A DNA stretch of 64,000 bases, taken from Nitrospirota bacterium. GTDB lineage: Bacteria; Nitrospirota; Thermodesulfovibrionia; Thermodesulfovibrionales; JdFR-88. The stretch spans positions 1 through 64,000 of the forward strand of contig JAJYIR010000011.1 of assembly GCA_021789935.1 (NCBI GenBank), written 5' to 3'. The position numbers and the translations under genes are program-made. Below, piece after piece: positions 3,022-63,324 of the stretch. Every line of letters starts with the position of its first letter. Within the stretch, counting starts at the first letter, position 1. Below the pieces are notes generated by a model. It saw nothing but the letters and a program-made list of their open reading frames with translations, did no database searches and was not told the origin of the DNA.

Positions 3022-3561
3022 CTAGCTCCCCCCGCATTTGGCTATTTCCTGCTTCACTGCTGCAGCATCAGGGGCGGAAGGGCTTTGCTTGAGATATGCC
3101 TTGAACATCTTGACCGCTTCTTTTTTCTGGTGCAGGTCGTAAGCGAGCACCACTCCCATGTTCCTCAGGGCAATAGCGTGATCGGGATTTATCGAAAGGA
3201 CCTTCTTGTACTCCTCAACCGCTTTCATGGACTGGCCGATATTCCTGTAACAGGTACCCATGTCCACTCTCACATCCAGATCCTTGGGGTCAAGTTTCAA
3301 TGCGGCCCGGTACGCGTCTATCGCATCCTTGTATCTGCCTGAATCCATGGACGCATTGCCCAAATCGATCCAGGCCCGGAGATTCTTCGGGTCTTCGCTT
3401 ACAGCCACTTTAAGCACCCTGAGTTGGCTGTCAGCGTCCACCCTGGCCCCCGCATATCCATACTGTCCAGCCTGGCCTTGCTGTCCGCTGGTCCCGCTTT
3501 TCTGGCAGGCAAAAATCAGAGAGGCCGGTATCAGGAGGCCAAAAAGAAACAATTTCCTCAT
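3022..3561 (-). CDS. TPR-repeat lipoprotein
   Basis: This 179-residue protein starts MRKLFLFGLLIPASLIFAC, a lipoprotein signal with the lipidated Cys at residue 19, then a Gly/Gln-rich linker. About three tetratricopeptide repeats follow (for example LRAWIDLGNASMDSGRYKDA, then LDVRVDMGTCYRNIGQSMKA). TPR lipoproteins generally serve as protein-interaction scaffolds at the envelope. The ATG at 3561 has AGGAGG about ten bases upstream and gives a proper signal peptide, so it is preferred to the longer frame from 3606. The partner is unknown. Confidence 0.85.
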   Translation of the reverse strand: MRKLFLFGLLIPASLIFACQKSGTSGQQGQAGQYGYAGARVDADSQLRVLKVAVSEDPKNLRAWIDLGNASMDSGRYKDAIDAYRAALKLDPKDLDVRVDMGTCYRNIGQSMKAVEEYKKVLSINPDHAIALRNMGVVLAYDLHQKKEAVKMFKAYLKQSPSAPDAAAVKQEIAKCGGS

Positions 3562-3672: not shown

Positions 3673-3701
3673 TTGGCTATAAATAAAACGATTGCTATAA
3701 T
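3673..3701 (+). promoter_or_regulatory. Extended -10 promoter for a candidate small RNA
   Basis: TTGGCT (3673-3678), a 17-base spacer and TATAAT (3696-3701), with the extended TG at 3693-3694. Predicted start is about 3707-3708. No rightward protein-coding gene follows; the next gene is on the opposite strand. Confidence 0.7.
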
Positions 3702-3706
3702 AAATC

Positions 3707-3778
3707 AGCCTTAAACGAGTTGTACCCTCCCGCTCGATAAGGCCTCGCCTGGGGAAGCCCCATTTCCCTGGGCTTTTT
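3707..3778 (+). ncRNA. Candidate C-rich small RNA, about 70 nt
   Basis: This is a free-standing transcription unit between two leftward genes. A strong promoter sits just upstream. A hairpin CGAG (3716-3719)/CTCG (3733-3736) exposes ACCCTCCC (3724-3731) in its loop, and a 10-bp terminator stem follows at 3747-3773 with its own GCCCCAT loop and TTTTT at 3774-3778. The C-rich loops are complementary to Shine-Dalgarno-like GGGAGGG, as in known C-rich regulatory RNAs. I do not recognise a named family. The unit is well supported by signals; the function is inferred. Confidence 0.6.
3747..3778 (+). terminator. Rho-independent terminator of the candidate small RNA
   Basis: GCCTGGGGAA (3747-3756) pairs with TTCCCTGGGC (3764-3773), ten pairs including two wobble pairs, with a 7-base loop and five T's directly after on the plus strand. 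Confidence 0.75.
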
Positions 3779-3787
3779 ATTGGGCAC

Positions 3788-3985
3788 CTATTCGCCTTCT
3801 TCCAAGGTAATGGCTTCTACCGGGCAGTTTTCGGCGGCCGCCTCGCAGCATCCGGCAAATTCGCACCCTTCAGGGTCCATGACTTCCGCCTTGCCCAAGT
3901 CCTGATTCAGGTGAAACACGGCCGGGCAAACTTCCTGACAGTTGCCGCAGCCAATGCACTTTTCAAAATTTATTACCGGTCTCAT
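3788..3985 (-). CDS. Single-cluster [4Fe-4S] ferredoxin
   Basis: This 65-residue protein begins MRPVINFEKCIGCGNCQEVCP, giving the CxxCxxC part of a cluster site, with the fourth ligand in ENCPVEAI. An extra pair of cysteines in CEFAGCC is typical of this small-ferredoxin group. It would carry low-potential electrons in the cytoplasm. The ATG at 3985 gives the usual length; a TTG at 4051 would add an untypical 22-residue leader. No Shine-Dalgarno sequence is obvious. It lies about 95 bp downstream of the transporter gene, in the same direction, so it may be co-transcribed. Confidence 0.85.
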   Translation of the reverse strand: MRPVINFEKCIGCGNCQEVCPAVFHLNQDLGKAEVMDPEGCEFAGCCEAAAENCPVEAITLEEGE

Positions 3986-62767: not shown

Positions 62768-63324
62768 TTGCCTTCCTCCTCTATTTTTAAAAAAACCTGT
62801 TTTATCGTCCGGGGTGAAAAACCCCTGCGGGCCAGGGCGCCGTACAATCTACTTTTTAAAGTCTCCCGGCTTCTTCTCAAAGTCCCCGGGCTTCCGTCGG
62901 TCCCGTGGTTTCCCCCCGGAGTCTCCGGGCCGGCCCTTTCCATGGTCCTGAGCTTTTTCAGGGCCATCCTCATGGCCCCTTCAGATTCATCATATCCCGC
63001 AAGCGCTTCATCAGCAAGACTGGCGGATATGCCCCTTTTAAGCAGATAACCCATGGCGCCGCGCCTGCCCAGCCCCCGGGTCTCCCTGGCAAGCCTCGCG
63101 AGCGACTCGGCAAGGGCCGAATCATTTATATAACCAAGTCTTTCCAGCTTTTGCAAGGCTTCATCGGCCTGCTGGCCGGTAAAACCCTTCAAAGCCATCT
63201 TTTCCAGCAATTCCGCGCTGCTTCTGCTTCTATAGCTCAGAAGCCTGAGGGCATAACTGAAGGCGCTGCCCGTCCCTTGCCCTTTACCTCTCCCGGCAGA
63301 AGACTTTTTTGGTGGAAATGACAT
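62764..63324 (-). CDS. recX: RecA regulator RecX
   Basis: The 186-residue protein has three RecX three-helix repeats: ALRLLSYRSRSSAELLEKMALKGF, LERLGYINDSALAESLARL and LKSRLYGALARRGFSPRTIKQVF. RecX caps RecA filaments and moderates recombination. The start ATG at 63324 follows an A-rich (CAAAAA)-type leader with no Shine-Dalgarno sequence. recA itself is not in the window. The 3' end overlaps the BamE-like gene. Confidence 0.88.
   Translation of the reverse strand: MSFPPKKSSAGRGKGQGTGSAFSYALRLLSYRSRSSAELLEKMALKGFTGQQADEALQKLERLGYINDSALAESLARLARETRGLGRRGAMGYLLKRGISASLADEALAGYDESEGAMRMALKKLRTMERAGPETPGGNHGTDGSPGTLRRSRETLKSRLYGALARRGFSPRTIKQVFLKIEEEGK

Follow-up and report, generated by a model that had tools for sequence, protein, structure and literature searches.

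The window analysed here, a stretch of 64,000 nucleotides from a Nitrospirota bacterium, contains a real, structured and conserved small RNA gene. We consider it probable, with some room for doubt, that the plus-strand segment 3707-3778 encodes a small, non-coding RNA about 72 nt in length, which has its own predicted sigma-70-type promoter and an intrinsic terminator and which would most likely act in trans through the pairing of C-rich loops with Shine-Dalgarno regions. Judging from covariance-model searches, this RNA represents the short branch, with two hairpins, of an RNA family found in one order of Nitrospirota.

Structure and promoter of the RNA gene

The structured unit spans positions 3673-3778 of the plus strand and consists of an extended -10 promoter, two hairpins and a U5 tail (Table 1). 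In the promoter, TTGGCT (3673-3678) and TATAAT (3696-3701) are separated by a 17-nt spacer that includes TG at 3693-3694, and transcription is predicted to start at about 3707-3708. We dropped the idea of an IscR-like site in the -35 region because the sequence there is not palindromic. Since the flanking TPR and ferredoxin genes are both encoded on the opposite (minus) strand, the unit is part of neither neighbouring mRNA, and we infer that it is transcribed discretely.

An earlier note, made from the letters of this DNA alone, had proposed such a promoter, a hairpin with a C-rich loop and a terminator, lying between two leftward genes and without a coding role. The extended -10 promoter with its 17-nt spacing from TTGGCT is present as described, as is the position between two minus-strand genes; ACCCTCCC indeed occupies 3724-3731 within hairpin 1, and an open-frame check found no plausible peptide frame within the RNA. 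One detail had to be corrected: the terminator hairpin at 3747-3773 and its U5 tail are there, but the stem has 11 pairs, G-U included, rather than the 10 that had been counted.

The predicted fold of the 72-nt RNA was better than those of all 200 shuffled sequences (z = -3.65). In this fold, the hairpin 1 loop showed unpaired probabilities of 0.62-1.0, and the loops of the window form read UACCCUC(C) in hairpin 1 and GCCCCAU in hairpin 2. A consensus scan yielded 4 promoter-like sites, compared with 0.8 ± 1.0 in shuffled sequences, and 3 terminator-like sites, compared with 2.3 ± 1.7. Each on its own, the promoter and terminator signals are thus modest evidence.

Table 1. Features of the small RNA locus and its flanking genes, in window coordinates
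Feature	Position	Strand	Description
TPR lipoprotein-like gene	3022..3561	-	Divergent from the RNA; among the loci examined, confined to the window's family and missing from some members
Promoter	3673..3701	+	-35 TTGGCT, 17-nt spacer, extended -10 TGCTATAAT; kept in the family alignment, G005 and G039
Hairpin 1	3708..3743	+	Stems GCCUUA/UAAGGC and CGAG/CUCG; fold and covariation
C-rich loop of hairpin 1, ACCCUCCC	3724..3731	+	Putative anti-Shine-Dalgarno-like seed
Hairpin 2	3747..3773	+	Intrinsic terminator stem in the window; C-rich loop GCCCCAU
U5 tail of terminator	3774..3778	+	T5 in the DNA sequence
4Fe-4S single-cluster ferredoxin gene	3788 to about 3985	-	Convergent with the RNA; conserved neighbour, outside the RNA

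Conservation within the window's family

A pattern scan of named genomes showed the members of the window's family to be Nitrospirota MAGs such as JdFR-88. BLAST recovered the unit in 10 of the 11 other genomes of this family, and a covariance model built from five family members (R1) found one copy per genome in all 12 family genomes, with E-values from 1e-17 to 9e-7. The family alignment keeps the -35 element, the AT-rich spacer, the extended -10, the CCCUCCC loop and both hairpins. The -35 element reads TTGACT in the 12 relatives aligned, leaving the TTGGCT of the window as the odd one out. The intergenic position is the same across the family, usually with the TPR gene on one side and the ferredoxin gene on the other; the gene order is UbiX-like gene, Zn-ribbon protein gene, TPR gene, RNA, and a ferredoxin gene facing the RNA. 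There are exceptions: no TPR gene was found in G011, nor was one in G005, whose ferredoxin gene is located elsewhere in the vicinity. The U5 tail is poor or absent in some relatives (G006, G007, G009 and G039), which makes termination in these less certain.

MAFFT alignments of all family members placed the second hairpin wrongly in some rows, and we therefore used model-guided alignments instead; these are biased toward the structure of the model, for which a slid-partner control was provided. In the model-guided alignment of 11 family members (10 distinct), compensatory double changes occurred in 8 of 19 pairs, compared with 1.8 in shuffled alignments, and within the family 5 of the 9 pairs of hairpin 2 carried them.

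These data bear on one alternative, that a chance promoter happens to precede a chance terminator and the unit has no function. The terminator signal, being close to the shuffled expectation, is compatible with chance, but conservation and covariation refute this explanation, and we regard its probability as negligible. The unit is beyond chance because its promoter, loop and two hairpins are kept in all 12 family genomes together with compensatory changes, and the RNA itself is conserved order-wide, again with compensatory changes. Conservation of promoter, loop and terminator in relatives was one of the two tests on which the earlier note had staked its proposal beforehand, and the proposal came through it; the covariance search of related genomes that it had suggested revealed the RNA across the order, as described below.

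An RNA family in one Nitrospirota order

G039, a genome of another family, has the RNA next to the same ferredoxin gene; its stems differ in sequence, and its GAUACCCUCCC loop is unchanged. Reading of the ferredoxin loci in family f12 identified a longer version, in which GCCUGUGCGGGAUGUUUUACCCUCCCUUCCCGCACAG is followed by two further C-rich-loop hairpins, the last of them being the terminator. We built a second covariance model, R2, from four f12-type long RNAs alone, leaving out the window RNA. This model gave matches in 31 of the order's 176 genomes, among them the loci already known in G002 and G003, and recovered the window RNA with 25.0 bits (E = 5.5e-5 in a 76-kb search). Because R2 was built without the window RNA and nevertheless finds it, this match independently supports placing the short and long forms in a single family. 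The weak R2 matches L145-L149 and L151 were judged to be junk when read.

A third model, R3, was built from 24 members and matched the window at 3703-3803 of the plus strand with 43.9 bits (E = 3.3e-8), the window sequence being among its rows. Besides this covariance match, the window RNA has the two loops by which the R3 family is recognized, ACCCUCC in hairpin 1 and a C-rich loop in hairpin 2. R3 matches were found in at least 47 of the 176 genomes of the order, distributed over eight families (f1, f4, f5, f6, f7, f8, f12 and f13). This count is a lower bound because the filters used in searches of more than 40 genomes drop weak matches; G008 and G010, for example, carry the RNA by R1 and were missed by R3. 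Families f2, f3, f9 and f10 gave no R3 match. In a draw of 396 genomes from the phylum, all 41 R3 matches fell in the same order, and none was found outside it.

In the alignment of the 24 members, 93.9% of cells pair, and compensatory double changes are seen at 23 of the 31 base pairs. The covariation score was 0.438, compared with 0.148 ± 0.012 in shuffled alignments and at most 0.112 with partners slid. Helices 1 and 2 differ between members at nearly every pair. The hairpin 1 loop, which the earlier note had singled out, contains ACCCUCC in 44 of 45 members (CCCCUCC in the remaining one, G001), flanked by bases that differ between members, and the hairpin 2 loop contains a C run in nearly all 45 members examined. 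Hairpin 2 is also the terminator in the window's family, and elsewhere a third hairpin, GGCCCUC/GAGGGCC, serves this purpose. The C-rich loop of the terminator, the third hairpin in other families and the order-wide spread are additions to what had been seen in the window alone.

A few weaker candidates were also inspected. The R3 match in G051 is doubtful (E = 4.7e-4); this locus, L131, is a diverged structured element that adjoins the ferredoxin gene at the expected place without the ACCCUCC loop, and it is possibly a decayed copy of the RNA. A weak R3 match within the window, at 62803-62985 (+; 14.6 bits, E = 0.14), lies in a GC-rich stretch and was judged on reading to be due to chance. 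Pattern matches in Acetobacter, Flammeovirga, Methylophilaceae and Planctomycetota were likewise set aside as chance, since R3 did not match them at E up to 1. A viral origin was rejected, as the conserved core pattern had no match in viral contigs.

Neighbouring genes and locus history

The same ferredoxin gene lies within about 1.5 kb of the RNA in about 30 of 46 inspected loci, mostly in convergent orientation. In other families, the ferredoxin gene is followed by a gene with a weak Pfam match to deoxyhypusine synthase.

On its other side, the RNA has different neighbours in different families. In f12, the stop codon of a TetR-type gene lies only a few bases (within about 10 nt) before the start of the RNA. 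In f6, and also in several f13 genomes, it is a DsrE-type gene whose stop lies within about 10 nt of that start, and in f6 this gene is itself preceded by a tetR gene. From this arrangement, the RNA may once have been, or in those families may still be, the 3' end of a tetR-dsrE transcript, and in the window's family it would since have become a free-standing unit under a promoter of its own. The same proximity to tetR and dsrE stop codons could be taken to mean that the element is chiefly a 3' untranslated region with a terminator, which stabilizes or ends tetR/dsrE mRNAs and of which the free-standing form is a relic. We regard this as quite improbable, since the RNA does not follow tetR or dsrE in the window's family, f8, f5, f4 or many f13 genomes, the window's family has a conserved promoter of its own and inverted neighbours, and an invariant loop is not needed for a terminator.

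Proposed mechanism and candidate targets

The complement of ACCCUCC, GGAGGGU, is a strong Shine-Dalgarno sequence. In the mechanism that we propose, the RNA would act in trans on several mRNAs, the exposed ACCCUCC loop of hairpin 1 and CCCC loop of hairpin 2 pairing with G-rich, GGAGGGU-like Shine-Dalgarno regions. Such pairing would block ribosome binding and repress translation; by analogy with studied RNAs, mRNAs are probably switched off by this covering of the ribosome-binding site. We infer this pairing, the repression, the targets and any role of Hfq. Hfq is encoded in 15 of the 16 carriers tested, the exception being G039. Among three non-carriers tested, a small sample, it is missing in two, G019 (f9) and G012 (f2).

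We searched the 12 family genomes for GGGAGGGTA, the 9-mer complement of the loop, within 10 nt of an ATG, and obtained 33 matches compared with 27 for the reversed pattern, a small excess. About 12 of the 33 are real starts, and about 7 of these belong to exported proteins, including multiheme cytochromes of G007 and G006; cysK in the window genome is also in the set. The exported proteins with an exact GGGAGGGTA at the start are L105, L094, L115 (G007), L093 (G009), L102, L112 (G006) and L111 (G008), several of them with CXXCH haem motifs. In 14 carriers of other families, we found few real GGGAGGGTA starts and no common class among them. Exported proteins and multiheme cytochromes as a target class are therefore a weak hint and not a result.

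A fixed loop within freely changing stems is the pattern expected of either a pairing seed or a protein site. The invariant C-rich loops might accordingly bind a protein, with the RNA serving as a sponge or scaffold, and the order-wide constancy of the loop fits this possibility equally well. It would also agree with the weak outcome of the target search and with the fact that, like sponges, each RNA presents two to three similar loops. However, the bases flanking the loop vary, the loop is complementary to GGAGG-type Shine-Dalgarno sequences, GGA loops of the CsrA-sponge type are absent, and the three studied analogues with C-rich loops (NfeR1, sX13 and B11) work through base pairing. On balance, we think a protein site unlikely and favour mRNA pairing.

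Combining mRNA pairing with the locus history leads to a wider scenario, which we advance tentatively and consider rather doubtful. The RNA would be an order-wide global regulator. It would have originated as the 3' element of a tetR-dsrE (sulfur-relay) locus that faces the ferredoxin gene, and in the window's family it would have turned into a free-standing small RNA under its own promoter, its third hairpin being lost and its second becoming the terminator. Through two C-rich loops, it would adjust how strongly redox and envelope proteins, exported multiheme cytochromes for example, are translated. With a calibrated model, a conserved seed and a list of members at hand, existing transcriptomes of the order can be used at once to test the RNA.

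Comparison with known small RNAs

The window RNA matched no Rfam 15 family at the gathering score, in agreement with the earlier note, which could assign it to no named family and held that it may be new. The sole Rfam match in the window is a cobalamin riboswitch (RF00174; 44119-44304, minus strand; 115.3 bits) upstream of minus-strand cbiM-, cbiN- and cbiQ-like genes, named from reading their sequences, for a cobalt uptake system. In the open-access literature searched, we found no small regulatory RNA family of Nitrospirota.

C-rich or CU-rich loops that target G-rich leaders or Shine-Dalgarno sites occur in RepG of Helicobacter, RsaE and RNAIII of Staphylococcus, and LhrC of Listeria. The window RNA resembles these in its C-rich loops, with relatedness judged from the Rfam scan alone.

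Three studied RNA groups share this design. NfeR1, of the ar14 family, uses three redundant anti-Shine-Dalgarno motifs to block G-rich translation starts independently of Hfq (PMC10746234). sX13 has three C-rich loops through which it represses mRNAs that carry G-rich motifs close to their start codons, with Hfq being dispensable, and RNAIII and HPnc5490 were compared alongside it (PMC3771888). B11/6C blocks G-rich translation start regions with two C-rich loops (PMC10470900).

The ar14/NfeR1 RNAs (cuckoo RNAs, RF02344) of Alphaproteobacteria are similar to the long relatives described here in their chain of three hairpins with C-rich, anti-Shine-Dalgarno-like motifs. They also share variable stems with constant loops and a sigma-70 promoter of their own (NfeR1, PMC10746234). 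They differ in phylum and in their CCUCCUCCC loops, compared with ACCCUCC and CCCC here, and the window form has two hairpins; the ar14 hallmark of three hairpins each with an unpaired CCUCCUCCC was found neither in the window form nor in its relatives. The 6C/B11 RNAs (RF01066) of Actinobacteria likewise have two C-rich-loop hairpins that pair with ribosome-binding sites (PMC10470900), whereas the loops here are not six-C runs. sX13 of Xanthomonas, compared by its published description only, is also highly structured, with C-rich loops and G-rich motifs near the start codon as targets (PMC3771888), but has 4C/5C loops, another sequence and another lineage.

These similarities raise the question of whether the RNA belongs by descent, as a divergent member, to alphaproteobacterial ar14 or actinobacterial 6C. 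A three-hairpin relative in G033, which has the same plan of three hairpins with C-rich loops, scored 32.1 bits against ar14 (E = 1.1e-4 in 201 bases) and 22.4 bits against 6C, both below the curated cut-offs of 58.8 and 47, respectively. The window RNA had no match to either family at E up to 10, its loop is ACCCUCC rather than CCUCCUCCC or six C, and R3 has no matches within the phylum outside the order. Common descent was thus already disfavoured, and we hold it to be very improbable. Based on these comparisons, the RNA family is new but of a known kind, probably working like ar14, 6C and sX13, and the analogy suggests another independent arrival at stable hairpins with C-rich, anti-Shine-Dalgarno-like loops.
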